Part shown: in pieces, positions 22,547 through 64,000 of the stretch | How positions within the stretch are numbered: the stretch's first letter is position 1 | Layout: every line of letters starts with the position of its first letter | NCBI RefSeq assembly: GCF_035083965.1 | Contig: NC_089729.1 | Coordinates: 16,542,964-16,606,963 of the forward strand | Direction: 5' to 3' | Length of the DNA stretch: 64,000 bases | Source: Branchiostoma lanceolatum | Lineage: Eukaryota > Chordata > Leptocardii > Amphioxiformes > Branchiostomatidae | Program-made: the position numbers and the translations under genes | Notes under the pieces: generated by a model | Told to the model about the DNA's origin: nothing | Database searches by the model: none | What the model saw: the letters and a program-made list of their open reading frames with translations, nothing else

Positions 22547-23230
22547 TGCGAGAAAGCTTGCTTTGTGCTAATACAATAGCAGAAAAATATGTTAACGATT
22601 TTCAAAATCCTCCGTTTTTTTAGTTTCTCATTTCAGACAAGGGAATGAATACGAATAAAGCACATTCAACTAGCGCCAATCCAACTGTCTATGGTTCGAT
22701 ACATAACTACTAGTAGTGACATGTTATCTATGTGGTTACCTTAAGGCTTCAATAGTTTGTTTTACTTTTATCTCACCAGGGAGTAAAGGTCACGCGTAGT
22801 TGTTATCATAGTCTTCTCCCACGCTGTCCCACCACGGTACAACATTACACATTCACAACCTACCTGCTCGAAAAGATCCTCTCTGATTACTTTGCAAGTA
22901 AGTTTGCTTGTATTTTGTAGATGTCTGCTTTTGTTTAGAAGTAGTTTTACACCTGTGTCTACCGGCTATAAGGATGAAGGTACCGTATACCGTAACCTAT
23001 GACATATTTCAAGTTGTCGCCAGCGGCAAAAGGTAATACACACTAGATCTACATGCGCTGGTATGCAGACAATAGTAAGTAATACACGCAGGTTTGATAT
23101 GGCATATAGCTAGCCTAGATACAGTTGGACCAAAGAGGTTTTGTATGAAACCTCCTTGGTTGGATGAACCAACATGTATTCATCAGGGCTTATACCATTC
23201 TCAGGAAGAGTTCATGTCAATCTTTAACCA
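22547..23230 (+). repeat. Unit D: diverged copy forming the P450 5' flank
   Basis: Aligns with unit C from 21727 onward at clearly lower identity: GCGAGAAAGCTTGCTTTGTG, AAGTTTGCTTGTATTTTGTAG and TTTCAAGTTGTCGCCA in order. It continues through ATACCATTCTCAGGAAGAG, the counterpart of ACCATTCTCTGGGTGGGATT near 18729. The P450 start codon lies about 60-100 bp downstream, so units A-C are copies of this gene's upstream region. Confidence 0.8.
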
Positions 23231-23283
23231 GACTTATCTTTACCACTGAAGAAGTGTCTTATTTCTGTTTGACATATCCAGAG

Positions 23284-24776
23284 ATGGTCAGCCTGGTGGG
23301 ACTTTGCGACACCACGAGCCTTCTCGTTGGGCTACTCCTCCCGGCACTTGTCTACGTGTTGGTTGTGGTCGTTAAGTCTCTGTTGGGGCTCCGGAAGGAC
23401 ATAAGTCTGGGAAGCAAGTTCCCCTCCCCTCCCTACCACTGGCTCTACGGTAACAATCACTTGGTAGGTCTGAAACATCCTTACAATTACAACGGTATCA
23501 AATTCATGGCGTATCAATACACTGTTATGATCCTCAACCTCTGGAGAGACTAGTATCGTGGGAAGGGGGCACTGGTGGGCATTGTACGTACTGGCAGAGA
23601 TTGGGAACTATGACAATATGTGAGACGCATTCTGCACAAGCACACCCCTGAGAATGTTTGGGATCTTTAAAACGACGCCATTTTACAAAACTAGAACTCA
23701 AAGATCTTATGACTTCGTTAAATATCTAGAGGTTCTCGTATGTCCTGTTTGATTGTAGTTCATTGATCATGCAAATAAGGTTTCGATTAACATTACATGT
23801 GACCATTGATCTATTCCTGTTACTCTGTGGTGAACATCACAACGTTACATATTTAGAATACATAAATTTGAAAATATAAACTGGCCGACCAAACACAATA
23901 TCCCCTTGACCTAGACCGTCTTGTCTGATTAACGAATAATTCTGGCATCTATGTTTCCTAAACTTCCTGCGCTTCCTGTCACTCTGGCAAACGATGTGAC
24001 CTTTGCTGTCATCTTCCCACTCACATCTGCATCCTGCTAGTCTCCAGTTACAACTCAACCGAGGAACAAATTTTAACCCAGGCCAAACTCTAAAACACAC
24101 CAAGACAAACAAACAAACAAACAAACAGACAAGCAAACAAACGAAAAACTCAGATTCCGTATCAATATCTGACTTGTATGACACGCAGACTGACTTCACG
24201 TTTGGTGAGAAGTACCTGTCCATGACACGGGCGGTTGTGGAGAAGCACCCGCAGGCTCACTCTTTCTGGATGGCGGGATTCAATAATACCATCAACATAA
24301 CTCATCCGGAAACCATCAAGCAGCTCATGAAATACCAAAGTGAGTTTTTTTTTCGTGACACAGAACAAAATCAAGAGCGTGAATCTTTCTGAAACTACTT
24401 TACGTACTTTAAGCCTGATGTATTCAAACTACTGAAGTGCATAATGCAACCTTGCCTACTACAATCTTGTATTATTTATATATATGCCATATATGAAAGG
24501 CCAAGTACATGTCAGAAGAATGTAAATTATGTGAACATACTTTTGACACTTGCCAACACAGCAAATACAATTAGTAATCTAGCCATTGCGACATGTAAAA
24601 GCACTATTTGTTTTTATCCCAAATTAATCTATATCATCTCAATCTTTTACACACGTTCACCTCTCTCTGTGTTTAAAGGCAAAAAGTCAAATGTGTACGG
24701 CACGCTGCACTCATGGCTGGGTGAGTTTTTACCTTGGCCTTTTTTACCTAATGAAAAATTGAGGTATTATCTTTGG

Positions 24777-24816
<40 letters not shown>

Positions 24817-27800
24817 TGTTGTGTTTCCGGATGCATGTATTTGTGGTCAGCATAAGTTGAGAACCTCTGTTTGTATTATACAATTATTTTTTATTATATT
24901 GCGAAATGCAATAAAAACTTTTAAAAATGAAGAGAACCAATGGCTAGGATTCATTTGATTTGCTAGGTAACGGCCTGTTCATGAGTGACGGAGACACATG
25001 GAAGGTTCGCCGACGTCTCCTCACGCCTGCTTTCCACTTTGACATCCTCAAACAGTACGTCAGCGTCTACAACAGGGAAGCCACGGAAATGATAGTAAGC
25101 TTATAAAATTGATGATTTCATTTATTTTACGGTCAATTCTTGTGACCATTTACTATGAGTTAGAAAACTTCTAACGTAATTAATATCATGATTACTGCCT
25201 TAGTTCTGATGATAAAGATTTATGCAGCGCAATTTTTCATAGAAATCACTTGCAACATTGTATATATAAATACACTATATATATATATATTACTTAAAGG
25301 TATAGGGCTATAGAATGTACTCAACTGTGCCGTTATGTGTACAGACACGAATTTTCTGTGCTTCCACAGAGCAAGCTTTTAGAGACTACCAAGAGAGGTC
25401 AAATTTTCGAGATGTTCCAAGAGGCCAGCATGTGTACCCTGGAAACCATCCTACAATGTGCTTTTTCAGGGGGACAGATGTCAGATGAGTAAGTCACTAA
25501 CAAGTTTCAATTAAAAGGGGACATACATGTACTTGTTTAATGGATTGTGATTAATGAAAACAACACATATTTGTATACATTTCGTGAAAACAATCTAAGG
25601 TCAGATTTGATGTACACGCTAACCACTATTACTAACTGCCGACGTTTACAGGGGTACATTTGTCCAAGAAATGTCTTCAGTTACTCGATGAGGAAGAGCT
25701 CAATATACCAACGTTTCCATCATTTCTTCCCTCCTCAGGACCAAGAACGAGTACGTCGAAGCAATTAGGAAACTAGAAATCCTGTTTATCGAGATGGTGT
25801 TGTAAGTATCTTTAATTCTGCCGTATGTCATAGGATGATCATCGTCAATATTTAACATCAGCCTTTCAGGACATGGGATAGCACATCCAGTCAACAGCTA
25901 TGTTGTAGAGCGGTTATCGTCATTACTCAACATCAGCCAATCAGCACTGACAAAAAGCATTCAATCAATGGCTTTAATGTATAGTGATCATCACCACCAT
26001 TCCACATAACCCAATCAACACCGACATAGAGCATCCAATCAATGGTTTTGTTGCAGAGTGGCCATCGCCATATTCAACATCAGCCAATCAACACTGACAT
26101 AGAGCATCCAATCAATGGCTATGTTGTAGAGCGATAATCACCATATTCAACATCAGCCAATCAGCACTGACATAGAGCATCCGATCAATGACTTTGTTGC
26201 AGAGCGGTCATCGTCATTATTCAACATCAGCCAATCAATTTGGAGGTACGTATTTCGCTACCTTTTCGAGTCATTGTTTGACGAATATTCTTGTAACAGC
26301 CAATCAGCACTGACATGGAATATCCCATCAATGGGTAATGCGTGTTGGAACTGACTCGCGATTAACATGTAAGACCTTTTGTGAATCCAAATCAAAGAAG
26401 ACATCACAAGCCATTTTCATTTTTTTTCTATGTTGTTTTTGTGTATGCAGCAACCCAATATTTATAGTAGCACCTTCTGCGTACAAACGGCTTCCACGGG
26501 GGCGTGAATACACTCGCCTGTGCAAGTTTGTGCACAACACGTCGGAACTAATCATTGCAAAAAGAAGGCAGCAACTCGTAAGTACTGAAGTGGATACAAC
26601 AGCGTAATGATTCTTCTAAGCTAAGTAAAGCAAATGACGCTCTTCCCTAGTTAGACATGTACACTCACATATTATAATCAAATGTATCGCTTGCATTTGG
26701 TAATGGTCTGCCTTCACGATTTCACCACTGAAAGGGGATGAACACATGGGCCGGTGTTCATTTTAGAGACAAAAAGGCACATAGATGTCAACTTTTGTTT
26801 GTTCATAATCAAATCTAGATGCGCGACGGACGTCCTCAACAAACAACCGGCAGGCTGGACTTCCTCGACCTTCTACTGTCAGCGCGTTACGAGGACGGAA
26901 CTGGGCTAACGGATCTGGAGATCAGGGAAGAAGTGGACACCTTCATGTTTGCTGGTGACGTTCCATCTTGCTTCTTTGTTTCTTTTTCCTCTTTCCATAC
27001 AATAACACACAGTCCTCCATAACAATCCTGGTAAATGATATTCTACCCGAAAATGGCAACAAAATACAATGGAAATGTTGGTGCAAGTACCTAGGATAAT
27101 TATGCAGTATAGAGTACTTAATAAAATCAAGTTGCCTACTGTATTATTGAATTGAAAAGGCGTTACGTTAATTGTTGCTTTGGATGGATGGTTGTAAAGA
27201 GAATGAAGTTGGAAGAATCGTTTTATCAGGACACGACACGACAGCAAGTTCCCTGTCCTGGACCCTGTACTCCCTGGCTCAACATCCACATCATCAGGAC
27301 AAGGTGCGGGAAGAAGTGAATTATTTACTGTCTGGCAGGGAGGATGACACAATTCAATGGTAAGACGACATCGCAATACTAGTGCGCTACACGTGAGCGT
27401 TGTCCAGGCGCTTCTGGTGGAGGTTATGATAGAACGTTGCACTTTCAGTCGGAAGAAATAAAAGCACCGCAACGGTGGGCGGCTGACTTACACGAGACAA
27501 TTATGAAATGAATATATGATGACGGTCGTCTCTTTTGAATTATTACGAAATATAAGATACAGGGTTTGAGGGGCATAAACGGGAAACGGACATATGATAT
27601 ATTATCAGGCTAGCCCCTCAGGCCGTGACAGGCGTCGCCGAAAAGTCCTGTGCTTTTTGTTGCAATTCCCACACGCCCTAAATATTTTTACTTTGATATT
27701 TCAGGGAAGACTTGCAGAAACTCCCTTACCTGACCATGTGCCTGAAAGAAGCTATGCGGCTTCACTCTCCTCTTGCTCTCATCGAGCGCAAAATGCTGGA

Positions 27801-30800
27801 GGACACTGTGATTGACGGCGTTACTGTACCAAAGGGGTATGATGTAGCCATACACCTGTACGGACTGCACCACAACCCGGCCGTCTGGGGACCCGATCAC
27901 ATGGTATAGTCGCTCATTGGGGGTCCCTTATTGGTCACTAAAATTTAGCACATCATGCAGATATAACATCAGCTCTGTAAGCCAAGAAAATTGGGACCTG
28001 GTAACTTATCACTGAAGATCGAAATTCTAGTGACTGTTGATGACATGACAATAAACCTAGCAAAGTTTCCTATTTTACCTGTTGTTTAATAGTAACTTTT
28101 AAGTTGATACCACAGTAAAGCCCAAAGATTGAGGTTTCGGTTGTAATCATCTAAATCACGTTTTAGTATAGAATTATTACCTGCACATTACCACTGGTTA
28201 TCTCGTTACAGGAGTTTGATCCGAGTCGTTTTCGTCCTGAGCGCATGAAAGACAGAGACTCTCATGCCTTCTTGCCGTTTTCGGCAGGACAGAGGTTAGC
28301 CTTGTTTTCGCTTGAATTGTGTTTTTCAAGATCCGTTTTGTCGGTTAGCCGTCTATGTCAGCGCATTATTAGATAATTGAACCATATTCAATTAATGCGT
28401 TTGGAATAGTAACATCACATTGTCACCCCTGTTCAGGAACTGCATTGGTCAGAACTTTGCAATGAACGAAGTGAAGGTGCTGCTTGCAAGGCTGATTTAC
28501 AAGTAAGAGAAACTACCATGCTCATGAAAGAATACATGAAACGTGTATATGCTAGCGACTACATTCATTTTTACTTTACAAAAGTGAGCAGAGCAGTAAA
28601 GATAATGAAGGTAATAAGGTATATTATCACATAGGTAGATGGCGTCGACCAATCAGAAGCCTCCATTGCCCACAATAAGTGGTCTGTTATCACGCCATAA
28701 CACACCACTTATTGACGTCATGTAAGAACAAAACCGTTGCATTTTGTAGAGGGGGTATCTTTTTGATGAATCTTTTTCTTAACCTTGTTTAGAATATCTT
28801 TATTGTCTTAAGATTCCCAAAAAAATTTCTTAGGATACATAAACAATACATTTAAAAAGGAAAACAAATTCAACTAGACTGGCCGTCATTTGCTTTAAGA
28901 GCAAATTCAGGATGTTTCGCCCATACTCCTCATGCAAGAAGTGGGCTGTCCCAAAATAATTCCTGGGCAAATCCAAGTTTCTGCATAATTTATGCAAATG
29001 AGGTCCTCATGAGCATAAGTTATGTCCAGGTGCTTTCACCTTCCCTACATATACCTACATGTTGTCACGGTAAGGGAAATACAAGTTTATGCGCTAATTA
29101 TGCAAATGAGGTCCTCATTAGCATAATTCATGGCCAGGTCTGATCACCTTTGCTAACGGTGCGTACATGTCAAATTTGACATCTGCAGCTTTTCCGGTAA
29201 GGGAATTACAAGTTTATGCAAAAATCATGCAAATGAGGTCCTCATTAGCATAATTTATGGCCAGGTGTGTTCGCCTTTCCTAAAGGTACATACACCTCAA
29301 AGATGACATCCGCAGCTTTTACGGTAAGGGACATACAACTTCATGCATCGATTATGCAAAGTAGGTCCTCATTAGCATAATTTATGGCCTGGTGTGTTCG
29401 CCTTTCCTAAAGGTACCTACATCTGAAAGATGACATCCGCAGCATTTACGGTAAGGCACATACAACTTCATGCATACATTATGCGAATTAGGTCCTCATT
29501 AGCATAAGTAATTGTCAGGTGTAGTCACCTTTCCTATAGGTACCTACATCTCAAATATAACATCCGTACCATGTAACATAAGGTACATATAAGTTTCTGT
29601 AATACCATTAGTATAGGTACCCCCTGACATCTGCTTGGTTTTAAGTCCCAGACACGGGGAAGTGTAGGAGGGCTTATGTTACAGTATGACCTAGTTCTTG
29701 CTGGGCCCGACAGAAAATAACCAAAAATTGCATCAAAAAATTGCAAAATAAATCATTTTGAAGTAGTGTATGCCAAAAAAAATAATGGGGTCCTTTGGGT
29801 AAATATCCAATGCACAACTAAACCAAATGTCAGGTCCTCAGGTTTCAACACCACGGCACTGGAGACCATAATGTGCGACTTTTGTCTGAAAATGACCAAA
29901 AAACCTCCATAAAATCATTTTAAAAACTTATATCAAAATAATTTAAAAAGGGTCTAGGGGTATACACGTACTCTACCTGCATACCAAATTTCAGCTTATT
30001 TGGTCGACGGACGACCGAGAAGAAGCGATTTGAAGATTTGACAGGAGAAGAAGAAGAAGGAGAAGAAACCTGACAAAAACAATATGTTTCGTTGGCGAAA
30101 CATAATTCAAGTAAAATTCAAACGGAAGGACTAAAAACAATATTTTTCACACCCCCGCCGTCAAAGTGGAACCGGCCCAGATCAGGCGATCGTTCGCAGA
30201 ACGCGTTCGAACGTCCGCCATAAGAGTACCACAGTTTTTCGTCGAGGAACTGTCAGACGCCGACTTAGAGTCAGTTTTCGGGTCATGGGAAGTTAGGGAA
30301 GACGCCCAGGAACATACTTCATCAGCAGTTGAGAGGCAAGGAAGCTGACGAGTGTCACCAACAAGAAGCAGCGGGCACACGGCCAGAGTCCCCTCCCCAC
30401 TCATCACATTGTATTTCCCGAAGTAGCAAATCATGGCAGACAAAGAAATCGCCCATGAAACCTCCTACGTTTCTACCCAAGAGGACCCCAGACCGGTATG
30501 TTCACGTTTCTGAGGGGTTTTACCTGACGAAAATTAAAAATATTACTGGCAAAGTGATGTCGTCTTGTTCAAAACAAACGCCCCCCTCCCCATGGCCCAA
30601 GTCACGAACACGTAACTTCCCGAAACCGATGTGTTGGCATCGAAAGAATTACGGTCAAAATCGCCCAAATTCTTACAGGTTTGTACCTACAATGATCTCG
30701 GCTCGATATGTGTACGCTTCTGTGGGATTTTTTCCGGCTTGAGCAATAATTATCCGGGGAAACTACAACTTGCGGCAAAGGGGAGGTAAACATGTACGAT

Positions 30801-33545: not shown

Positions 33546-36500
33546 GGAATGGTATGTTTTAGTGAAGACCCTGGGGCCACCTGGCATATGAAGGGCAACG
33601 GCTTGCTGCATGTGTCGTCATTCCACTTGTTTTGCGTCAGCCATTTGAGGGCGGTGGACTTCATGTAGCTACCACAGTGCTCTTTGTTGTCATGATTATT
33701 TGGTTCTTGCGGAGCCCATGGGTTGTATTCCCACCCAAGTTCAGTGCCATCAATCCATTCGAAGCTTCCTTCCTTGCGTTGGTCGTGAAGGCCAAACCAG
33801 AAGTTGGAATTGCGGTCGACGGAGCTCTTGAGACCGATGAGAAAGTTGTTGTTATCGGCGTCTCGGGGCATGGCAAGGGTACCGCCATCGAGACGACAAT
33901 GCAGGACCGCGTCCCCGAAGTTTGCTGGGGTGTTGAACGCCTTGTAACAGGTTCCACGCCATTCCCCATAACCTTTGGGACAGGCAACTAGAAAAAAGGT
34001 TTAACGTTGACTATAGTCATACCGAGGGGTTGATTTTAACCTCCTAGGTCATACATATAGGGATAGAATATTTGATATTGACGAAGGACCCCAACTCGCA
34101 AAATATGGTGTCATTGAATCGGCTGCATTGAATGCTTTGCATTACAGTCGTGCAATATATGCCCGTTGATTAATATGTCATTTTCTTTAATAGTGGCACT
34201 TTCTGATGTAGATACCTCTTTATCGCCGAAAACGTCAATTTGAGCCATATGATCGAAGCCAGGTCAAGAAAACAGATGGACCACTACACAACTGAATATT
34301 AATCAATTATAAATATCAATATAGATTCCGGTAAGTCCAATTGTTATCTCCATGAAAAAAGAATTTTCATGGGGATATTGTTTTGCGTACGTTTGCGTGT
34401 GTGTATGTTTATGTCACCGTATGCTTAACGTCAGCATAACTGAAGAACGTGTAAATGGATTGTAATGGTATTTGGTTTGTGGGTCGCTGTTGGGAGGAGA
34501 AAGGTCAAGGTCGATTTTGGGCCCCCTGGTATGTGTCACTGGAACTGCAATGGGGTATTTGTAATAATCTTCTAAAGAGAATAACTGATTATTTGGTATG
34601 CAGGTAGATTGGACAGAGATGTACAAACTGAAGTGCAAATTATGCAAATTGGACTGAATTTGCATAATTTATGAGGAATATATACACCTCCAATCTAGGC
34701 ATGTGGTCACACTTGTCACATCTGTTAGTCTCAAATCTAGGACAAGAATTCCCCGGGTCCCAACAGCCGGTGATGAGGAAAATCTATACCTCCATAATAA
34801 AACGCATCATATATGAAACAAAATTTCATGGAGATTTTGGGTCTTCAGACTCTTGTTTAGTTGGAGAACAGTTTATCTGTTCATAATGTATTTTACCAAC
34901 TCAGATGAACTTTCATGCTAATATACTCTGAAACGTTTGAGTAGAATGGTCGAGTACCTTCATGTGTAGGTGGTTCGGCAGCTTTCAAAAACATTGACGT
35001 TCCATTCTTTCCAGGCGGGCCGATGGGCCCTATCAACCCTCGAGGGCCAGCCGGCCCCATGGCTCCGTTTGCTCCTGGGGGCCCCGGCGGCCCGACAGAC
35101 ACAGGGCCAACCGGCCCCATGGCCCCCTTTTCTCCAGGAGGTTCCGGCGGCCCGATACACACAGGGCCAGCCGGCCCCATGGCTACCTTTGCTCCGGGAG
35201 CAGCAAATGGGCCAGAATCTTTTGGGCCAGAAAAAGATAGGGACTGAGTTAAAACATGCAGCCATTGAGGTTTTCCTTGTTCATCGTATGTATCAGTTGA
35301 GATTATTGTCTCTCTTGTACAAAGTGAACTACGATGCAAAAGATTTGTATTCAGTCTCTTTTCCGCTTATAGATTATGTATTGACCGGATCCGTGGTATT
35401 CATGTTCCTTATACTAGTAGTATGTTTAATGTTCTTCTCCTGTTGTTGTTGTTTTGTTAATGTGAAAATGAACAAAATAAAAAAAGACATGTACGTCCAT
35501 TTTTGGAAGACGATCAACTTAATGTTCGCCGAACAACCACACGGTAAACTTTGTATTTACCGTAAAATCATTATCATCTCAATGAGTTGACACATGAAAT
35601 GTACTCTGTTACATTGTTGTGTCACTGCTCTGTGCAGATAAGACGAGCAAATACTGTCATTTGAATCGATCTGTAGAACATAAGACATAGCATTCATGAA
35701 ATTGCCATCATCTAATCATATGGAATTATTATATGTATCATTTCATTACTACATGCTACTAACCTTCAAGTTCTACAATTCGTTGCTTCATCTTCCTGTC
35801 CTGTGCTCTAAGCTCAGCAATCTCATTAGAAACAGTTGTCACTTTAACTATGTAAGGAAAGAAAGAAAGAAAATTACGATAGGTTTCTGCAACGACACTA
35901 TTAAGATTCCAACAACACAATCATCATTTTGCAAGTACCATAATGATCGGTCTGCAAAACATGACAGTAGCATAACTTCAACCAAGGCGATTAGTAAGTA
36001 ATTAAAACCAACTGACCTGCAAAGTAAGCCAGTAGAGTGACGATAACCACGAGTAGGGCGGTACAGGTGGTTATGGCAATCCAAAGCTTTTTGCTCAGGC
36101 CGCTAGGAGATGTTTTGTCAGTGACAGCATCGGAGGTCGCTGTTTCACAAAACAACAAGCGTTTTTATAATTTTTTTGTTTCATCTTGTCTCATTAAATA
36201 TGAAAATAATGTAATTGTAAGAAGCACACTCTATAAACATAAGCAATCGTGCTTGTTGCCTTATACTTATGAAATGAATGTGAATAAAATATGAAATAAG
36301 AAATATAGAAATGACTGCGCAACAACGAAAGTATTTACCTGCTCCTGAGGCGTACATAGGGTTGGGCACATTGGCAGCTGCGTCGGCAATTGACCTCCAA
36401 TTAGTCTGAGACTGCTGCACGGGCGTGGTGCCTGGAGGAAAATTACAGAATCATGATGTTTGGGCAAAAATAGAATTATCTTAGTAAATCCAGTGCTGCA

Positions 36501-44472: not shown

Positions 44473-46174
44473 CTACCCAAAGATGTCTCCGAAGAAACTC
44501 TCCAATAATTCTTCTGAAGATTCTTCTGAAGATTCCTCGGAGGATTCCTCGGAAGATTCTTCGGATTCCTCGGAAGATTCTTCGGATTCCTCGGAGGACT
44601 CCTCGGACGATTCTTCGGATTCCTCGGAGGATTCCTCGGACGATTCTTCGGATTCCTCGGAGGATTCCTCGGACGATTCTTCGGATTCCTCGGAGGATTC
44701 CTCGGAACTGTCTACGTCATCACCGTCAGTGTTCTCATCTTCGTCCGAGGCGCCTGTCTCCTCTTCTCCGTTGCCGCCATTTTCATCTCCACCCGTCTCG
44801 GTCTGTTCTCCGTTCTCGTTCCCATCTCCCGCCTCGGTCTGTTGTCCGTTCTCGTTCCCATCCCCTCCCTGGTTACCGCCGTCTTCCTCAGAGCTGTCGT
44901 CTGTCTGTTCTTGCTCTGTAGAGCTGTCATCTTTAGTCTGCAAGGAGAACGACAACAAAAACTGAGCTAAGGACGAACCACAGACCATATAATTCAATAG
45001 ACAAAACGACGAAAGATATCAGGTGAAGGATGATTAATAATGTTGTGTTTCCGGTTTTGGCCCAGAAAAAAGATTAGAGTCAGTACGTGTGGATGTTTTA
45101 AATCTTTCTCAGATTTCGGCCGTGATCAAACAAATACAGTTTAGCAATCTAAAACTGTAATGCCTCAGGGTTTTTTTCATATTCTAGTTATGCAGATATA
45201 CATGTACAAGCACTCTGTCTCAGATGTCAGATCGAAAATTTGACTTCCCATACCAGCGGTCAAAACAAAAAGGCTAGGGTTGGCAGGTTTTTGCTAGGGT
45301 CGGCCGGGTAACCGAAAACACAACATTTTTTTCCTAGACCTATGAACAATTTCCGACATTTCTAAACAATCCGTTTGCATAGAAAACTCCTGGTTAGAGG
45401 TACATACCCCACAAGGAGCCGGTACGTTTGACGGCCAGTCACACTGCTGTTGGTCTTCATCGAAGACGATGTCTCCCGGCGCACAGTTGCGGTGGAACGG
45501 TTCGGAGTGACCCTCCACGCACTCGAAGTACCGCTGACAGTCCTGCAGATCTTGGTACAGACGGCCGAACTCTTTCCCTTCACATGAGAAATCTGGAAGG
45601 AACGTGCATAAAAGCACAATGTTATTGAAATCTCAAAACTTAACATAAACCGACTGGTCTCATGAAAGATACAAGCAAGGAAGTTTGGATAAGGCCAGGA
45701 AAATGATAATATGGTGGCATTGTTTGCAACTCAACATTGGCATTTTCAACGTCATTTTACCCCATCAAAGCACAAAGGTGTGAGAAAACATTGTTACAGT
45801 CAAATCATGGCAACGGTCTGAGCCATTACTAATAGTAATTCTTGATTTGTTAGCTGTAACTTAATTTTAGCTGATTTAATGGTCACTTGTCAACCGCTAA
45901 AATTTCATCATCACTAATATTTGATTATTAGTATTTCAGACAGTAATGTTTGTTCAAACCATTAGAATTAAGTGCCGTGACCTACTCCATTTTCCCCCGA
46001 ACCGCTATATTAAAGTGATTTACCACCCAGACGCATTGTTAAATGTACGATTTAAGGTACATGTAGTTAGACTGTTGACTTACAGTTCGATCTAGCTCTG
46101 CGATGGTGCCTAGCGGGCACGGAGATAACTGCAGCCGGCAGGACTGCAAGCAGGACCAAGAGTAGACGGTTCAT
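44473..46174 (-). CDS. Secreted chitin-binding protein with acidic SSEE-repeat tail (3 exons, 246 aa)
   Basis: Coding exons on the minus strand: 46084-46174, 45408-45592, 44473-44937, in phase, 246 residues. Residues 1-20 (MNRLLLVLLAVLPAAVIS) are a signal peptide. A basic patch RHHRRARS follows, then one peritrophin-A/CBM14-type chitin-binding domain, about 34-92, with the six cysteines of the family and the aromatic FEC block (CQRYFEC). The last exon is extremely acidic: Gly/Asn/Glu-rich, then a long run of SSEE and SEE units, ending LLESFFGDIFG. Ser-x-Glu is the recognition motif of secretory-pathway Fam20C-type kinases, so the tail could be heavily phosphorylated and bind calcium; that is inference. 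It does not match a named protein I know. Repeat copy number may vary between alleles. Confidence 0.88.
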
Positions 46175-52958: not shown

Positions 52959-55900
52959 ATGGCACAACGAATAGAACCTCCTGAGGGATCCCTGCGTGAA
53001 CTAGCAGAGCAGAAGGAACGAGAATGGAGAGAAATCCAAGAACTTCGGGTCGAGACTTTAGATGCTGCTTACAAACAAAAGGACAAAGACCTGAACGAGG
53101 AAAAGGCCAAGTTTCAAAAGCTGAAGGAAGACTTTAAGTACAACTTAAGACTCCTCGAGGAGAGGGATAAGGAACTGGAGAGGTATGACGCCGTCTTCGC
53201 CGAGCTGAGGGCAAAGGAGAATGCCAAAAATGCGGAAGTGAGTTGAGCATGAAAGTTCACCTGTGTTGGTAAACAGTACATAATTGTTTGGGCTGTTAAA
53301 AAAAAAAACTGCAGAGCTAGGGAGTTGGAGGAGACCGGATTCCAAGCATCTGGCCTAGGAACTAGGGAGGGTTTGGAGTAATTTTGACCAGGAACTAGGG
53401 TCTGTTTCATTTTGGACCAGGAACTAGGGAGGGTTTGAGCAATTTCTGGATTGGAACTAGGGTAGGGACAAAACCAGATTCTGAAAAAATCTGTGTGATA
53501 TGTTCAAGTTTGCCATTGCTAACTGTTAGCAACTTGTAAATTTTTGCACTCTTGCATACGCCAATGATTGACTGAACCTGTTCCCAAGTTTTCAACATAC
53601 TGTCATACTGAGCTTTCTGACTTCTAACCCAAGTGTAGCCAAGCACAAACCCATTGTCGCCGTTTCTCCAATTCTAACACAGATAAGTGAGCTGAAGATC
53701 AAGCAGGATGAGCTGCGGACGGCTGTGAGTCGTGAGGAGGCGGCTCGAGCAGAGCTACAGAAACATTATCAGCACAGGCTCAGGGAACAGCAGCAGGACC
53801 TGGACAAGTTCAGGAGGTGAGGACTTTTTATGATTCCATACTAGTACATACATCATGAGTTAGGAGACATGATATTCTTACAATAGGCTTTTTTTCATCA
53901 TGCACAACAGTATTTTGTACATTATGGAGCATGGCAGTATATGAAGCAAAAAAATTGACTTTTACTTGTCCTGTTTACGTTTACTTGTCCTGGTTCGACT
54001 GTCACCATTGAGTCTTACCGTGCCAGGTTGGAGGCCTGCCTGCCTTAGCCTGGGACCTCCCCCCCCCCCTACTTTGCCCCTCGCAGGGTCATCTATTGCA
54101 GTTGAAGTTTAATGCAGAGTTAAATAAAGAAGTGAACGTGACAAACAGAAAAATGTAGGAGGAAAAATATGTATAAAAACAAAAGATACAGAAACTAAGA
54201 AAGTAGATAACAAAAGAAAGAAGCAGAATTGCTCGTTAGTAATGGAGTGCTACTTGACTTACAAGCACATTTCAGAATACATCGTACGTGTTAAACTACT
54301 CCGTAATGAAGTTGCCTTTTTGCACCAAATCTGTATTGCTTACGAGAAGGTTACAACGATCCCAAAAACGCAGTGCAGTAATTTATAACTTCCTGTTGTT
54401 GTTTAGTTTGAAGGAAGCGGAGGTGAAGAGAGAGCGAGAGGAGTTTGAGAAGTTTAAGCGCGACCTTGAGCGGAGCCTTCAGGAAGTGGAGGCCGACCTT
54501 GACGCACAGAAACGCGAACTCACCACGGGGTTCGACGAGGCGCTACGGAGACGCGAGCACGAGTTCCGGAAACAAGCTGATGAGATGAGCAACACGGTCC
54601 TGGCGCACGAACTCAAGGTCGATAATGTCCTTGTCAATCATGAAATAAACTAGAAGACAAATTTTCCATACTTGTGCAAATTCATTACCGTAAAACTTAA
54701 AACTTTTGTGGTGTTTTTATTTTCCCGTTTTTTGCTATGACTTGACTTATGACTTTATGACTTTATTATATGCATTTCCACTGTATTACTGCACTATTAT
54801 GTGTTGTTCCAACTGTGAATCTAAAACACATTGCAAAAGTCTCCTTTTTCCTTTTCTACCACAAAATGGACCCACCTCGAAAATAAAGGAATTTACAGTA
54901 TCTCTTGACTGTCTTCCATTTCTGGAATCCTCCCTAAATTTTGTAAGGAAAGTAAAGAAATCACAACTCTTCATGTTGAAAATTCAGGAAAAATTTAAAT
55001 TTTCAGCAGAATAACCCTTGTCATTCCATACTACTGGATCAGATAGTACACAGGTACAGAATAGCATTGTGCTTGTCAGCAGATGGAACAAAAGGGTTAA
55101 CTTGAAGGCCATTTTCTTGACAAAGTCATGCACTTGTAACCTCTGCCACTCCTATATTGCATGAAGGAGAAAGATCACCAATGATTCCATGTTTTGAAAC
55201 TCTCCACATATTCACACAGGTAAAACTGCTGTCCAAGGAGCTTGAGATGGTGCGATCAGCCAGTGAGAAGCAGAACACAGAGCTACAACACACAGACCAG
55301 AACATACAACAGCTACAGAAGGCCCTCAAGCAGAAAGAGTGGGAACTGCAGGATGTTACAAGCATCAAAAATGCCAGGTCAATACTTCATTTTGTAACTA
55401 CGAACAATGTCTTAAAGTTTGTATCGACACAGAACAATGTGTTGTAATTCACAAAAAAGTCAAGATTTAGCCGCTGAATTCAATTGAGGCGTGTACTCAA
55501 TTGTCTTTTTGCTGGAAAATTCTGAGGTATCTAAAATTATCTAAACCAATTTTGTCCTTGTGTCTACAGGATAGAAGAGCTTGAAAAACAGATGAAACAG
55601 ATGGAGGTGAAGATGCAAAGGCTACAGGAGGAGTTTCAGAGAAAGTGAGACGGACAGTTAACATGACATTAGAGTGTTTGCAGTTCTATTTGACTTTTAC
55701 ATTTCTGTTTTTTTTTAATACTACAAAATTTAAGAATGAATGTTGTTTTTATCTAGACATGCAGATGTGGACAGATATGCAAGGGAGAAGGAAACTGCTC
55801 TTACTGCTGCAAAGGAGGTCAGTATAGAAGCATCCTTGACTATCCTGTCTTAGAATATCAGTTGGCTACTAGTGGCGTGGGGTAAAAGACCCCAAAATAA

Positions 55901-58900
55901 GTCAACAACCTAGATATGAATAATGTCATGATGGTATCAATTTATGTAACTCTATCAATCTTTTTTCTTTTTTTCACAGGCCCATGCAGAAAGAGAGAGG
56001 GCCCTGGAAGAATCCTTGAGGGACCTCCAAACCCAACTGGAGACCAAAGATGTGGAGCTCAGGAGACAGGCATGGAATCTTCAAGATGTCATCAAGGACA
56101 AAGACATGGTCCTGGAAAAGTATGCCTTATCTTTTTAACCTATATATTGATTTGCCATGACTGAGATACATCTGTCCCTTTAAAACAGGATCATGTCCAA
56201 GTCTAAGGACTAGAAATGAGATTGAGCAGACCACACTTATTGAAAAAAAGCAGGGATCCTTCCCGGTGTGAGTGGTTCAAAACCTAGAGTTCTATGGCCG
56301 CGCATGGGGCCATTGTCATATTGAGGTCACCTGCACGCCAAATGGCAGTCGCTCCAGACCCTTGCGATTCAGCCCTGCCAAATGTGCGCTCCTCACAATT
56401 CAGCCCCTGGCTGGCAAGAGAGAGTAGTTGGCCTACCCAATAATAAAAAAAATATTTTTAAAATTACAAAAATTATGTTTGCCACTCAATTTTGATTAGT
56501 CTTGTCAGAGAATTGACTTAAGTACCTGTTTTTGTTTAAAATCTTATTGAAAATAGGGTAAAGTGTAGGACGCTTTCAAGCTTCATTTGAGTGTGAGCTC
56601 GACCAAAGTAAGTAAAGTAAGTTGAAATTTTCTAGATTCCAGCAGGAGATCTCTGACCTGAAGACCCGTGGCGAGGCCCAGGTGACAGAGTTGTCCAGGA
56701 ACTCTGTAGCACGGGACATGGAACTACAGGTCCTGCGGGAACAGACCACCAGTCTGAAGGAAGAACTGCTGACCAGGAAAGTGGATATAGACAGGTGACT
56801 TATCATTAACGCACTATTAACTAACTAACTAGATTTGCGACTTAGCAAGATCTCAATATACCTTAAAAATACAAGTAATTATCATGACAACCTAGCAGTC
56901 AACTTTTGAATAAATATTGAAAATGATGATTCTGTAATAAGATTAATAAATCACAAGTTGCTTAAGTGGCCCCTTCTCTCGGAAAGGAGGAAGGACACCC
57001 ATCTCACCACTTTATGCGAGCTAGTGTGCAAGCATATTAATATAAACACTGACAATAATGAAAGCTCATCTGTGTTGGTAGTAATCATAATACAATGCTA
57101 AACAGTGACAGTGGGCGTTATAAACTTCCTGGCACGTTTGACCAATTGCTGACGTCACGTATCCGCAATGACACGTGTCAATAAAGTCACGTGTCTGTAA
57201 CTCTCGCGAGTTTACGTTCGGCAGTGTTTGGTCATTATTGATCCTGAAGAAGGCGACAGTGGTCATCGAAAATTTGATCTGTGAATACCTTAGTGTTGGA
57301 ATAAACACTGACAGTTTACTTAAACCAGCCCAGGGTTGCACACGTTGAGTCGTTACGTGCTGGAGGCCTGCCCACCCTAGCCCGGGACCTCAACTCTCCC
57401 CTACTTTGCCCCTGATGGGGTTATTCAAAGGTATCACCGATGTAGATGAAATCTGATACAAAATTGACTGTTATTTGATATTGTAGATACAAGAAAGACT
57501 TGACGTTAGCCCTAGAGAGAGAGTCGTCGCTGGAGCGGGCTAAGGCCCAACTGGAGCTGGACTGGCAGAGAAGGGGGGAGGACATGGAGAGACTTCAGTA
57601 CCAGAAATCTGAGGAACTCATACACAACCTCACTCAGGCCAGGGATGAGGTAGACATTTCATCTGCAGTCACTTTCTTTGCATTGTTTTTGAAAATTACT
57701 TAGATCTTGCAAAATTATGGTGTGGAATAATCTGATTGACAGGAATTGACTTTTCTTTCCTTTCAGAATGTACAAAAACATGCAAATTTTAAAGAACTAG
57801 AACCACTTTAGCTTGCTGAATAGCTAGTCCTCCACTGGTAGTGACAGAAAAGACGCAGATGTTATGTACAGAATGTAAAGTTTCAATTTACGGTCAGGTG
57901 AGGGACAAAAGTCGGGATTCAAACTCACGCCTTATAGGGCGTATTCACGTGACGTCATCACCCTTGCCCTCCGTGGGCGGCCATTTTGGGGTCCATCCCT
58001 GCAGCGAAGTTTCTTGGTGTCCGACGGTCTCTAAATTTCCAAGGAATGCGAAGTTGTCTGATCGTTGTTTTATTATGCAAAGAGTCTCCAGCCTCACATG
58101 ACATACAAAAATCCAATTTCACCTACTGGAAATGACGTTTTGAAGGGAAATTGAATGGCGTAGAAAACATCTGCCATTTCTACAGAGAGTTCCATAGGGC
58201 TCCACTATCAAGTGGACCCCAAAATGGCCGACAGTGCTCGTTGCTAGGGGGAGGGTCACGTGACTGAATACGCCCTATAGGTTCAGAGACAGAGTTGCTC
58301 GCCTCTAGACCATACTATGCTGGAACTGTTGCTGCTATTTTCTCCAGGCTGTTGCAGCAGTGAGAGAGAAGGACCGTGAGTTAGAACAGAGGGAGGACCT
58401 GGTGAGGATCCTGACACAGGACAGGGACCGGGCACTGGCCACACTAAGGAGACACGGACTACAGGCGGACACACACATCCCGGTACGTCTCAACACATCT
58501 CCACTCTGATACGATAGCTTCCTACTCCAGTGTAACATTGGCAGGTGTATTTTCTATATATCCTTGCCATGTTTCAACTATAGCTCCTGCAGTATGAAAT
58601 CATTATTGTCAACATTGTTTTTTAGCTTTAATCTAATACCATGATAATTGAATTTTGTTAACTCTTGGTAACACAAAAAAGGTTAACAAACCCAACTAGT
58701 CAACTTTACAATGTTGGTGAAAAAGGAACATACACATCACTTTGTGGCTCTGATACAAAACCCTGTTCTGTAAAGATACACTCAAATGTTTTGGCAACAC
58801 ATGTCCCATAAATATCAGCATTTTTTAGTTAGATCTGCTGTTACAAATTCCAACTGAAAAGATTAAATGCAGATCTCCCTTTTTTTTCCATAGACCAAAG

Positions 58901-61900
58901 AAGACTCCCCTGAGCAGACAGACCCGGACCTGTCAGCCTCGGAACAAATCCAGCAGCTGCAGCAGCAGAACCAGAGTCTGAAGGCTGTCATTCATCAGAT
59001 GAGGCAACAGATGGAGCAACTGGGTGGGGAGATGGCAGCACCAACAGCCAATCAGATCCAAGGGGTTGTATCACATGATGAACATGGACCAATCACGGCA
59101 GGTATGTGTGATGTCATGATTGGCCAATCAGATCCAAGGGGTTATTTCACATGATAAACATCACTGCAGGTATGTATGATGTCATGATTGTCCAATCAGA
59201 TGGAGGGGGATATGTCACATGATAACCATGAACCAATCACTGCAGGTAAGTGTAATGTGATGATAACCCAATAAGATGCCAGTGGTTGTATCACATGATC
59301 AACATGGACCAACCACTGCAAGATGTTATGTAATTTGATATTTAGCCAATAAGATGCCGGGGTTTGTGATACATCATCCACATACACCAATCACTACAGG
59401 GATGTATGATGTTGATTAGCCAATAAGACGCAAAGGGTATCTTAGATATGGTAACTACAGTTCAACCCATTCTCACTGCCTTTCACATGTGTTTGTACTT
59501 TAGACTATGTAAAGTCCCTGGAAGCAGAAGTCCGAGTGCTGAAGGCTAAGAACAGACAGCTGGCTGGGCAGGTGGAGGATGCCTCTTCAGCTGCAAGACA
59601 GCTGGGAACAGCTGCACCAGGTGCTGGGGTCGAGAAGCCTGTGTCAGCTGACAATGCCTACCTCAGAGCACACATCAAGGAACTCAATGACACCATTGGT
59701 GAGGAGCTGTGTACTAAGGTGTATTTTTGGTAACACCAAAGGGGTGGAGCCTTTGTAGTAAAGTTTGTAGCCAGCACTATTGAATGATTCGGAATGTGCA
59801 TTCCCTTGAAGTTGAAAGGATTTTAATTGTTCAAGATTACTCAAAAGCTGATTTTATGCAATATGCGTCACAGATAGAGGTACTTATGATTGTGGCAATA
59901 AACTTGTATGTTTTGTAGATTTTTGTTGCTTATATTTTGTGCCTGACAGGTGGTTTGAGAGTGGATAAGGTGTCATCCCAGGCTCAGCTGAAGAAACAAC
60001 AGGCCCGGATCCCCCATCTGGAGGGCCAACTGGCACAGCTACAGCAAGAGGTGGGGAGAAAATAACTTTGAATCGTACAGTTTAACTAACTGCAAAAAGA
60101 CTCTTGCTATTACTGTAAATGCATTTAAGTTTACATGGTGTTTTTAAGTTCGCGGCAGCACTATAGTCACATACTGCTACAGTATTGGACAAAAATATTT
60201 GCGGTGGTTTTAAGTTTGCGGTGAAACGGTCGCCGCGAAAACAGCGAACAGAAAATCACCGCAAACATTTCTACATTTACAGTAATTGTTACAAAACTGT
60301 TTTTGGCTTCTGTGATCTGAAAGATGATGATTTTGTTTTTTGTCAGGCGAGACAGAAGCAAGTTGAGAATGACCAGCTGCAGTACGACCTGGCAGCGCAG
60401 TCCAAGCGAGCTGCAGCAGAGACGGCAGCACTCCGCAGCCGCGTGACCGACCTGGAGCTCCAGCTGGCAGAGACCAGGAAGGAAGCAGACGAGTACTACA
60501 GGGGAGGGCTGCAGAGGAACCTGGAGGCAACCGCACTGGGTAACCAGGTGGGTTAGTGGGGAGGGGACATGGAGGCCATGGCACTGGGTAACCAGGTGGG
60601 TTAGTGGGGAGGGGACATGGAGGCCATGGCACTGGGTAACCAGGTGGGTTAGTCACTTAGTGGGGAGGGGACATGGGACATGGAGGTTACTATACTGGGT
60701 AACCAGGTGGGTTAGTGGGGAGGGGACATGGAGGCCATGGCACTGGGTAACCAGGTGGGTTAGTCACTTAGTGGGGAGGGGACATGGGACATGGAGGTTA
60801 CTATACTGGGTAACCAGGTGGGTTAGTGGGGAGGGGACATGGAGGCCATGGCACTGGGTAACTAGGTGGGTTAGTGGGGAGGGGACATGGAGGCCATGGC
60901 ACTGGGTAACCAGGTGGGTTAGTGGGGAGGGGACAGGGAGGTCACTGTACTGGGTAACCAGGTGGGTAAGTGGGGAAGGGACAGGGAGGTCACTTTACTG
61001 GTTAACTAGGTGGGTTAGTGGGGAGGGGACAGGGAGGTCACTGTACTGGGTAACCAGGTGGGTTAGTGGGGAGGGGACAGGGAGGTCACTGTACTGGGTA
61101 ACCAGGTGGGTTAGTGGGGAGGGGACAGGGAGGTCACTGTACTGGGTAACCAGGTGGGTTAGTGGGGAGGGGACAGGGAGATCACTGTACTGGGTAACCA
61201 GGTGGGTAAGTGGGGAGGGGACATGGAGGCCATGGCACTGGGCAACCAGGTGGGTTAGTGGGGAGGGGACATGGAGGCCATGGCACTGGGTAACCAGGTG
61301 GGTTAGTGGGGAGGGGACAGGGAGGTCACTGTACTGGGTAACCAGGTGGGTTAGTGGGAGGGGACAGGGAGGCCACCGCACTGGGTAACCAGGTGGGTTA
61401 GTGGGGAGGGCACATGGGACATTGAGGTCACTGTACTGGGTAACCAGGTGGGTAAGTGGGAAGGGGACATGAAGAGTATTGTATCAGGTGGCTAACCAGA
61501 TGGGTTAGTGTAGATAGAGACATGGGACATACAGGTTGCTGTACTGGGTAACCAGGTGGGTTATTAGCAGAGTGAGGTTCATTGCAAGGTGCATAATATA
61601 ATGTTGCGGACATGAATTACAGATTTTATGTGTATTGGCCTGTTCACAGAGTCTTAGGACATACTGATTTCTGGAATTGTTGTTACAGATATCCTCACTA
61701 AAGATTGACCTGGCTTCAGGGAAAACTGCATCAATGGGCCCAGAACAGGTCAGTTATGTTTGCCAATAAACAAATTCCGTACACTTCAGCATATACTTGT
61801 GGTATGCATTAAGAATGATGTCTGTAAGTATGCAGCTCAATTTACAGCTGATACATTCGATTCATATTGTGTGCAAAAAGTTATAATTTGATTGTTATTC

Positions 61901-63594
61901 TTTTCTTATGACAGTCGCTTCTTGTCAAGGAACTCCAAGGGGAAATTCAAAGTCTCAGGCAGCAGCTGTCAGGTGCTGCTGGTCATGCGACCGCCAAGCA
62001 GCCAATGAGAAGCCGAGGAGGGTCAGAGGTCGTTGAACTGAGGAGGAAGCTGAAGGGAGCGGCCCAACACATCGGTCAGCTGGCCAAGGAACGCCAACAG
62101 CTGATCGAACTGGGCAACAGGCTCAGGGCAGAGTTGGCCAGAGCCACCGGTCAGTTATCTTGACCACTTAAACTTCTCTTTTCTTTGTACAAATTAAAGT
62201 TACTCAAAATCACCAGAATCACTTCTTCCTTTTGCCAAGTCTTGTATGTACACTTAAATCTTGAAAATCTATTTGGAAGATTTTAGTGGTTCTTGTCCTA
62301 AGTAAAAAGTCCTACTTCAATGTTTCTCATTGGCAGAGGTAATAATTGCATAATAAACGTACATGTACTCGTAATGAATTTGCTTCAAATTAAGATGTTT
62401 TTGAAAGGACATCCTTAATTTGGTTTTTGAAAGAAATAAAGTATATTGCACATGTATATAATAATCCGTCTATCATGAAGTGTACATGACTTGTATATCT
62501 ATTGCCATGCAGGTGGAGGAATGCCATCATCAAATGGTGTAACAGGTGCAGCAGCTGACAGACAGCTGCCATCAGAACGCGCAGCAGGTGTGGCAGGTGC
62601 CAGGTCACCTGATGACAGAGACAGGTCCAGGAGGCTTGGAGAGGAGTACAAAAACAAACTGGGGGAGCTGGAGAAACTGCAGTACCAACTCACCCAGCAG
62701 GTGGAGCCACTCGCTATTGCTACATACACATGTACTAGTATATAACTTGTTCAGAAATGTTAAAGATTTGATTTTGTGATGGTGTAAACTTAAGGCTCAC
62801 AATCAATCACTCACTAACTCACTATCCAGTTTTCCTTCATGCAACATGAGCATAATTTCATATTTGATAATAGCTTGTACCTTCATAGAAGAACTTAATT
62901 GCGTGACTATTGTAGCAGGTACAAAGTATGGCAACAACAGTAAACATAGAACAAGACATAAGTAAATTGGAATAAAACTATTCACTACAACAAAATGACT
63001 ATCTTAGGTTTTACCTGATTCAAGTTGGGCTAATTTTGAGTATCATTATTTTTTCTGATAACAAAACAATCTTTTATGTATTTGCATATTTTAATACATA
63101 AGACTGACGAGGGATTATATTCAGTTCAGTTCAGTTCATCCTCTGTGAAGTGACACAAATGTCTCCACTCTACAGGTCCCTGTCAAGCATGACAGACCAG
63201 AGTTCATCATCTTAAAGACCCACATCATCTTCCATCACCTTCTTCTGTCAACGAGGGGCAACCATGCCTACGCTTCTCATTCAGTTTCCAAACGAAAACC
63301 ATGCCGGCCATTTCCTCATGGTGCATAACAAAAATTGGTCTGCCAGTGACAAAGGGGCTAATGTAATCTCCCATTTCATCAATGAAAAATCTTACCCATA
63401 AGAACAAATCATTTTTCAGGAACTCCGGGTTGCTAAGCAACAGCTACAGCGTGAGCAGAGAGCGGCGGCCTGGGCTGTCGTGGAGTCTAGCGTGGAGCTG
63501 GAGTCAAACGGAGAGACCGCCGCACCAGAACAGCCTGCCCAACCATCCGCACCTGTCACAGGTCCTGCACAGTACCCTCCACATGGACCAACAG
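52959..63594 (+). CDS. CCDC57: CCDC57 (coiled-coil domain protein 57), 18 exons, continues past the window
   Basis: Exons: 52959-53237, 53683-53816, 54407-54617, 55220-55377, 55570-55644, 55757-55817, 55980-56119, 56636-56794, 57487-57649, 58348-58482, 58894-59101, 59504-59698, 59950-60050, 60347-60547, 61689-61748, 61915-62149, 62513-62700, 63420-63594. Every junction keeps phase, giving 959 codons so far. The protein is almost entirely coiled coil. Diagnostic stretches shared with vertebrate CCDC57 as I remember it include YNLRLLEERDKELERYDA, REHEFRKQADEMSNT, LERAKAQLELDWQRR and DYVKSLEAEVRVLK. CCDC57 is a centriolar-satellite and microtubule-associated protein needed for centriole duplication and cilia; that is known for vertebrates and inferred here. 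The last visible donor carries a split codon, so more exons lie beyond 64000. Introns after exons 11, 14 and 18 contain copies of the exon ends. Confidence 0.93.
53285..53475. repeat. Short tandem repeat with GGAACTAGGG in CCDC57 intron 1
   Basis: GGAACTAGG occurs at about 53355, 53391, 53420 and 53453, with GGGAGGGTTTGGAG/GAGC and TTTTGGACCA between. The unit length varies (29-36 bp). Confidence 0.6.
54025..54095. repeat. Short dispersed repeat shared by two CCDC57 introns
   Basis: GGAGGCCTGCCTGCCTTAGC followed by CTACTTTGCCCCT recurs with small changes at 57360-57425 in another intron of the same gene. About 65 bp, non-coding. Confidence 0.55.
57935..58277. mobile_element. TIR element, short form (343 bp), inserted in a SINE
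   Basis: TAGGGCGTATTCACGTGAC at the left and GTCACGTGACTGAATACG then CCCTA at the right. TATA flanks both sides. It matches both ends of the 0.9-kb element at 12419-13325. SINE-like sequence on the left (GGGATTCAAACTCACGCC, a reverse B-box) and on the right (GACAGAGTTGCTCGCCTCTA) seems to be one SINE split by it. Confidence 0.8.
59124..59440. repeat. ~75-bp tandem repeats of the exon 11 end in CCDC57 intron 11
   Basis: The exon's last ~55 bases (CCAATCAGATCCAAGGGG through CCAATCACGGCAG) and the donor GTATGT recur at about 59124, 59192, 59268, 59346 and 59420, at intervals of 68-78 bp. Later copies are more degraded. At least two retain donor-like GCAGGTATGT or GCAGGTAAGT. Confidence 0.85.
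60111..60284. mobile_element. TIR element, 174 bp, ends TACTGTAAATG
   Basis: Ends TACTGTAAATGCATTTAAG and CTACATTTACAGTA are inverted repeats. The inside has GCGGTGGTTTTAAGTTTGCG. Related small elements occur at 7570-7703 and probably 14460-14600. Confidence 0.75.
60548..61565. repeat. 48-bp minisatellite derived from the exon 14 end and its donor (about 20 copies)
   Basis: The exon ends CACTGGGTAACCAG followed by donor GTGGGT. Immediately after, CACTGGGTAACCAG|GTGGGTTAG recurs about 20 times, mostly every 48 bp (for example 60542, 60590, 60638), with some 63-bp units carrying an extra CACTTAG block. Two sequence types alternate (ACATGGAGGCCATGG and ACAGGGAGGTCACTG). In the exon frame each unit begins with GTG GGT TAG, a stop. 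Confidence 0.9.
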
Positions 63595-63775
63595 GTGTCA
63601 ATCATCATTACTTAGCAGTCCTCATACCCCTCCTATCCCTTGACCTCTTTTTGGGTCGTTGGGGTTCCATGACTTACCCTCCACAGTACCCTCCACATGG
63701 ACCAACAGGTGTCAATCATCATTACTTAGCAGTCCTCATAACCCTCCTGTCCCTTGACCTCTTTTTGAATCATTG
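63570..63775. repeat. 114-bp duplication of the exon 18 end and donor
   Basis: CAGTACCCTCCACATGGACC, then AACAG, then donor GTGTCAATCATC at 63570 repeats at 63684. The following ~70 bp (CCTTGACCTCTTTTTG and so on) is also duplicated, with few changes, implying a recent event. Confidence 0.85.
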
Positions 63776-64000
63776 AGGCACCATGACTAGTTTCTCTACT
63801 ATCCTCCTCCACCTCACTCTGTCCTCTGCTGTGCTGCTATCATTTCTTCAGCATATAGGCTTAGTCCTGTCCATCCTGAACTTGTTGATACATGTGGTAT
63901 TGATTCGTATTGTTTAATGGAGTGAAAAATCTGGCACGGTAGAAAGATTCTACTAACTGTAGCCTCAAATAGTAAGACGATAAACTCGTCTCACACTTTA
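63776..64000. other. CCDC57 intron sequence at the window edge
   Basis: No exon recognised. The CCDC57 frame ends at 63594 with an incomplete codon, so the next exon should lie beyond the window. Confidence 0.5.

Follow-up and report, generated by a model that had tools for sequence, protein, structure and literature searches.

Tandem repeats at three predicted splice donors of a lancelet coiled-coil gene

Gene model and location of the arrays

The window analysed in this study is a stretch of 64,000 nucleotides from Branchiostoma lanceolatum (contig NC_089729.1, positions 16,542,964 to 16,606,963), and towards its end lies a gene for a coiled-coil protein in which three tandem arrays, hereafter arrays 1, 2, and 3, repeat the predicted splice donors of exons 11, 14, and 18, respectively. 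The gene was modelled by joining open frames with AG/GT borders into 18 exons, with the end of exon 18 set to 63594; the joined frame is open across all of them, and the exon numbers 11, 14, and 18 given in the initial annotation fit the model. The tandem repeats of the window were listed by Tandem Repeats Finder (TRF), and the distal ends of arrays 1 and 2 were placed by eye. The features that the following sections rely on are listed here by their positions in the window.

52959..63594, plus strand: coiled-coil gene (CCDC57 in the initial annotation), 18 exons modelled, open joined frame with AG/GT borders
58894..59101, plus strand: predicted exon 11, phase-1 end CAG/GTATGT, final 55 bases inside array 1
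60347..60547, plus strand: predicted exon 14, phase-0 end CAG/GTGGGT, final 26 bases inside array 2
63420..63594, plus strand: predicted exon 18, end uncertain, candidate GTs at 63562, 63595, and 63709, all in phase
59047..59460, plus strand: array 1, approximately six units, the full ones of 68-79 bp and the last partial, end by eye
60522..61577, plus strand: array 2, 21 copies of a unit mostly of 48 bp, end by eye
63564..63788, plus strand: array 3, two 114-bp units, TRF period 114
59024..59025, plus strand: alternative in-phase GT (TGG/GTGGGG) upstream of array 1, donor score 3.0, U1 duplex -9.0

The gene, which possibly continues past the end of the window, presumably resembles human CCDC57. 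Pfam did not confirm this name: the joined protein matched GAS and exon 1 matched CCDC93_CC, both being coiled-coil matches below the cutoff. Nine pattern stretches of the exon 1 protein were found in viral_contigs, yet tblastn gave no relative, and the core pattern of array 2 had 0 exact matches in viral_contigs and genome_contigs, neither of which is expected to contain lancelet DNA. Because the exon following exon 18 lies beyond the window, the end of exon 18 cannot be fixed, and the candidates at 63562, 63595, and 63709 are not separable by phase. Exon 18 might conceivably be terminal, ending at TGA 63774; the lack of AATAAA and ATTAAA 3' of 63594 inside the window speaks against this.

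Recurrence of donor sequences in the introns

Each of the 18 donors was represented by a probe covering positions -40 to +12 (40 exonic and 12 intronic bases), which was aligned to the remaining intron, or in the case of exon 18 to the sequence as far as the window end, and the result was set against 300 dinucleotide shuffles. Donors 11, 14, and 18 yielded scores of 60, 69, and 81 with z values of 18.4, 20.9, and 30.3, respectively, and the final 30 exonic bases alone gave z values of 11.1, 15.7, and 19.5. The remaining 15 of the 18 donors showed no intronic recurrence (z of 2.2 or less); among 17 acceptors, 16 had z values of 1.3 or less, and acceptor 7 reached 4.2 owing to a 13-nt match. Given the z values at these three donors compared with those of the other donors and the acceptors, the donor repeats stand as a sequence pattern. 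Two statements of the initial annotation are therefore upheld, namely that the introns after exons 11, 14, and 18 start with tandem donor copies and that the periods are approximately 75, 48, and 114 bp (TRF rows of 76/68/144, 48, and 114, respectively).

The same annotation took the first copy of each array to include the end of the upstream exon, and we compared the exonic parts of the arrays by a codon score built on a codon table of the gene itself and on windows that overlap; intron stretches of 9 to 18 codons lacking a stop have a mean of approximately -0.8 in this score. The eight codons of exon 14 inside array 2 score 1.28 bits per codon versus 1.18 for the rest of the exon. In contrast, the 18 codons of exon 11 inside array 1 score -0.13, as low a value occurring in 1 of 559 overlapping windows of 18 codons taken from other exons, and the 10 codons of exon 18 inside array 3 score -0.45 (as low in 4 of 687 windows of other exons). 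The inclusion of the exon end is thus well supported for exon 14 and not firm for exons 11 and 18; nor are the arrays clearly three independent events of one kind, as had also been proposed, since a coding-like exon end is present at exon 14 only. The evidence from sequence comparison is good that the end of exon 14 was copied into the intron, whereas arrays 1 and 3 may be wholly intronic or may have become part of the exon by capture. Both possibilities are suggested by the intron-like codon scores and by the in-phase GTs located upstream at 59024 and 63562.

Structure of the arrays

In array 1, TRF detected 59047-59330 in rows with periods of 76, 68, and 144, and the extent judged by eye reaches approximately 59460, so that the array fills approximately 89% of intron 11. 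GT is present at 59102, 59170, and 59246 and is absent from the three distal units; two of the five intronic units therefore have GT, with one of the five being partial and the register being judged by eye. Identity to the exonic unit drops with distance (0.93, 0.80, 0.76, 0.71, and 0.52, the last value including unrelated bases), and the pairwise identity among the five full units ranges from 0.66 to 0.93.

Array 2 was detected by TRF at 60522-61471 with a period of 48; it extends by eye to approximately 61577 and fills approximately 90% of intron 14. GT is found in 20 of its 21 copies (19 of the 20 intronic ones), 18 of them reading CAG/GTGGGT and two TAG/GTGGGT, and the degenerate copy 61500 has AT instead. 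Two features within the array bear on its history.

60618..60839, plus strand: two identical 111-bp blocks (63+48 bp units), 0 differences
61367..61414, plus strand: distal copy with donor 61393, keeping the peptide EATALGNQ of exon 14 with one synonymous change

The identical blocks point to recent turnover within the array. The last copy differs from the exonic one at 16/48 positions and copy 61500 at 24/48, and these two most distal copies are also the most diverged. When 19 intronic copies were translated (copy 61500 being outside this set), 18 encoded changed peptides. An array that came from the exon and in which an old copy, here copy 61393, has survived could look like array 2; against this, the first base of copy 61393 is common to another subtype of array 2 copies.

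The two units of array 3 show 12/114 differences, three of which are at the far edge. No difference between the copies is present in 59 bases around the donor, a run this long having P = 0.006 under an even spread, and the mismatches are clustered past this run, several being G in copy 1 and A in copy 2; partial conversion is possible. The single intronic copy keeps its GT (1/1), at 63709, which would be reached from exon 18 through 38 open codons.

Relation to known repeats in lancelet genes

Tandem repeats spanning the exon-intron boundaries of lancelet genes have previously been described as 'mirages' (PMC3087553, PMC3902484), and the kind of repeat is accordingly not new. Mirages are present in the globin genes BflGb6 and BflGb9 and in Adh3, with similar structures at other loci; many, not all, of their copies carry AG/GT, the units measure 10-72 bp in Adh3 and 150-160 bp in the globins, and mirage length varies between haplotypes (PMC3087553). 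Data on Adh3 together with reverse transcription-polymerase chain reaction suggest normal splicing despite the mirages (PMC3087553). In lancelet PGBD5, two imperfect tandem repeats of 60 and 108 bp overlap exons and abut splice sites, and the same paper also names troponin C (PMC3902484).

Judged from their sequences, the arrays of the coiled-coil gene look like a further case of this known kind. The unit of the exon 14 array spans the predicted exon-intron boundary with a coding-like exon part, and its copies align; the predicted junctions at exons 11 and 18 are likewise repeated, but there the exon parts are intron-like and rival in-phase GTs exist upstream. The units of approximately 75, 48, and 114 bp are within the published span of 10-160 bp, those of 75 and 114 bp falling between the published values, and the splice signal is again kept in many, not all, copies. 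Array 2, and this array only, also resembles mirages in its internal homogenization and diverged edges, as seen in the 111-bp blocks and in the last copy and copy 61500. Unlike in Adh3 and the globins, three arrays occur here in one gene, all at donors, and the ends of exons 11 and 18 are not clearly coding. PGBD5 is similar in that its repeats overlap exons and abut splice sites, with two cases within one gene; it differs in being another gene, the model of which took two repeats as an extra exon (PMC3902484). The available text on amphioxus huntingtin mentions tandem repeats, none of them noted at junctions (PMC2206037), and that on VCBP describes partial exons with splice sites inside introns of VCBP3 (PMC2632668). 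No report of these repeats in CCDC57 was met, the sole literature query naming this gene having been aimed at centrioles, and we make no claim of absence.

Other repeats in the window

Among the other genes of the window, just one donor-like site, a strong one at 25803, was probed for junction repeats; as a candidate fourth case it was rejected, its score being 15 versus a shuffle mean of 15.3. This site is followed after 36 bases by a 73-bp array (25839-26238), which has no likeness to the presumed exon end before 25803 and the unit of which contains CCAATCA, as does that of array 1. The surrounding region was provisionally taken for a P450 gene, which was not confirmed by Pfam or PDB: a Pfam search with 10 open reading frames (ORFs) from 23149-30345 and a PDB search with one of them found nothing. 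Further repeats are located as follows.

3789-4673 and 29067-29566: one 127-bp unit, forming two arrays at a distance of 25 kb
424-2853 and 15814-16102: scattered occurrences, on both strands, of a near-palindromic part (approximately 35 bp) of the 127-bp unit
34896-35366 and 44476-45018, minus strand: tandem repeats in long open frames, with periods divisible by 3
18346-19269, 20075-21217, and 22023-22632: near-identical open frames, present three times

The 127-bp unit probably represents a dispersed repeat family. The in-frame repeats on the minus strand comprise collagen-like 60-bp units and, close to a chitin-binding domain, 33-/36-bp units within a stretch that is acidic and rich in Ser/Glu. 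The open frames at 18346-22632 suggest a repeated segment of approximately 1 kb at a spacing of 1.7-1.9 kb.

Origin and maintenance of the donor repeats

We consider it probable that the three arrays are minisatellites of the mirage kind, which originated from duplications overlapping a donor, subsequently grew within the introns, and have been tolerated. A short tandem duplication that by chance overlapped a 5' splice site would have placed a second donor inside the intron, and the array would then have expanded and turned over there. If the first donor is used, the mRNA would be unchanged and the downstream copies would act as decoys, which may be why the gene tolerates the arrays; no function would be required for them. 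The donor repeats are thus most likely a tolerated DNA duplication rather than a splicing device. For exon 11, the likelier history may be the reverse or a mixed one, in which a repeat in or beside the intron gave rise to the present exon end and its donor, and array 3 may or may not include the end of exon 18.

Several observations weigh against this reading. The use of the first donor is a prediction from one allele of one species; donor 59246 (CAG/GTAAGT) beats the first donor of array 1, 59102, in the U1 duplex (-11.6 versus -7.8), and the exonic 9-base donor is repeated in 17 of the 20 intronic copies of array 2. The codon-score argument relies on windows that overlap and on the table of a single gene, and low scores are also found in short stretches of exons 15 and 17. 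Copy 61393 differs from the exonic copy at 3/48 positions, which is equalled by five other copies, so that its peptide is all that marks it as old.

A serious alternative, to which we give rather less than an even chance, is that only exon 14 carries a true junction duplication and that arrays 1 and 3 are ordinary minisatellites of their introns, with 59024 and 63562 being the true or ancestral donors or with the exon having extended into the first repeat unit and captured its donor. It agrees with the intron-like codon scores of exons 11 and 18 and the upstream GTs described above, and with 59024 as the donor QMEQL would be followed directly by DYVKSLEAEV, a junction that in our own reading forms a single continuous coiled coil. 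Furthermore, CCAATCA, a motif of the array 1 unit, occurs 22 times on the plus strand of the window, with six occurrences in array 1 and eight at 25839-26340, where an array lies in which no coding ORF was recognized. The donor matrix of the gene, however, places 59102 above 59024 (8.0 versus 3.0) and 63595 slightly above 63562 (3.8 versus 3.3), and the U1 duplex is mixed, favouring 59024 over 59102 (-9.0 versus -7.8) but 63595 over 63562. It is unlikely, on the other hand, that introns 11 and 14 were themselves born from a duplication of the junction or exon. Repeat copies make up most of both introns, the globin introns of amphioxus have been proposed to have such an origin (PMC3087553), and PMC4974935 cites introns of fission yeast that extend over a 24-bp AGGT segment in two or four copies. 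The Rogers model of intron gain (PMC4974935) resembles the present case in the tandem duplication of AGGT-containing DNA. In that model, the copies supply both GT and AG (PMC4974935), whereas here the acceptors lie outside the arrays: those of introns 11 and 14, i.e. acceptors 12 and 15, do not resemble their introns (z = 0.0 and 0.1) and are not derived from the copies. An artefact of assembly or of collapsed haplotypes is hardly credible as an explanation of the pattern. Tandem arrays are commonly misassembled, and the draft-genome assembly of one globin mirage is described as apparently aberrant (PMC3087553, additional file 4 legend), but the copies differ from each other (identities of 0.66-0.93 in array 1 and 12/114 differences in array 3), for which reason simple read duplication is no explanation. 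The copy number may nevertheless be wrong, above all at the identical 111-bp blocks of array 2.

The initial annotation favoured a mechanism tied to exon-intron junctions, such as repair at R-loops, or else selection for multiple 5' splice sites. That a mutational process linked to splice donors or to co-transcriptional R-loops creates such duplications seems quite improbable to us. In its favour, all three arrays (3/3) span donors, while a first duplication of 76, 48, or 114 bp falling at random in the gene would span a donor by at least 10 bases on each side with probabilities of 0.093, 0.047, and 0.146 (joint, 6e-4); the P value for at least three of the gene's four arrays with TRF scores of at least 100 (including a 29-bp array at 53357) being on donors is 1e-3. 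Array 2 is also G-rich on the coding strand, with a GC skew of +0.53 and nine G-quadruplex (G4)-type motifs. Arrays 1 and 3, however, lack this R-loop signature (skews of +0.12 and -0.37, and 0 motifs in each), and a common R-loop/G4 signature was rejected because the composition disagrees among the arrays. The exonic share of the unit is not constant (55/76, 26/48, and 31/114 bases in arrays 1, 2, and 3, respectively), and under random placement of the whole arrays (284, 1056, and 225 bases), with placements that reach an exon start being dropped, a donor is covered with at least 20 exonic bases with probabilities of 0.37, 0.64, and 0.33 (joint, approximately 0.08). The verdict on placement hence depends on how arrays grow, and these P values are weakened by the fact that the gene was picked by eye because it shows three arrays. 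Three donors versus no acceptor indicate no significant bias (1 in 8 by coin), and if exon 14 alone is counted, little is left to explain. The data consequently did not bear out the proposed junction-tied mechanism or R-loop repair.

Selection that maintains multiple 5' splice sites, whether as decoys or to allow regulated alternative splicing, is very doubtful indeed. The related claim that each copy is a potential alternative donor is borne out insofar as GT is kept in 22 of the 26 intronic copies (2/5, 19/20, and 1/1 in arrays 1, 2, and 3, respectively), but, reading from the exon, arrays 1 and 2 present an in-frame stop before their downstream donors, the use of which would therefore lead to truncated products. 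Array 3 is open, and its second donor would add 38 in-frame codons, with the 59 bases around it unchanged; 37 of these codons were scored and are intron-like (-0.53). In array 2, the invariant columns over the 21 copies number 7 of 9 in the donor and 8 of 39 elsewhere (Fisher p 0.002), the p value rising to 0.007 when copy 61500 is left out, to 0.02 when copy 61556 is, and to 0.06 when both are; these values overstate the contrast because the copies were found by their donor, because neither columns nor related copies are independent, and because a single-base deletion in one copy makes the columns after it look more variable. Moreover, ten other 9-column windows, out to columns 30-38, are as quiet as that of the donor among 19 copies of array 2, and donor-specific conservation is suggestive at best. 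Array 1 has lost three of its five donors, and selection for multiple 5' splice sites is weakly supported at most. The tolerated minisatellites that we favour can be accounted for without a mechanism specific to junctions and without selection for many donors, although each of these retains a small probability.

Implications

We tentatively raise a further view, although we regard it as somewhat unlikely, namely that junction minisatellites move both ways, with the end of exon 14 having passed into the intron and a repeat unit having become the end and donor of exon 11. Exon 11 would then have gained approximately 18-26 residues unlike a coiled coil in a coiled-coil protein, which we hold with similar reserve. 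If such two-way movement is true, shifts of exon ends would have a visible source in lancelet introns. Should RNA data confirm it, the array at exon 14 would be a natural test of the spliceosome choosing one donor among 20 near-identical ones, and exon 11 would exemplify how a repeat can alter an exon end.

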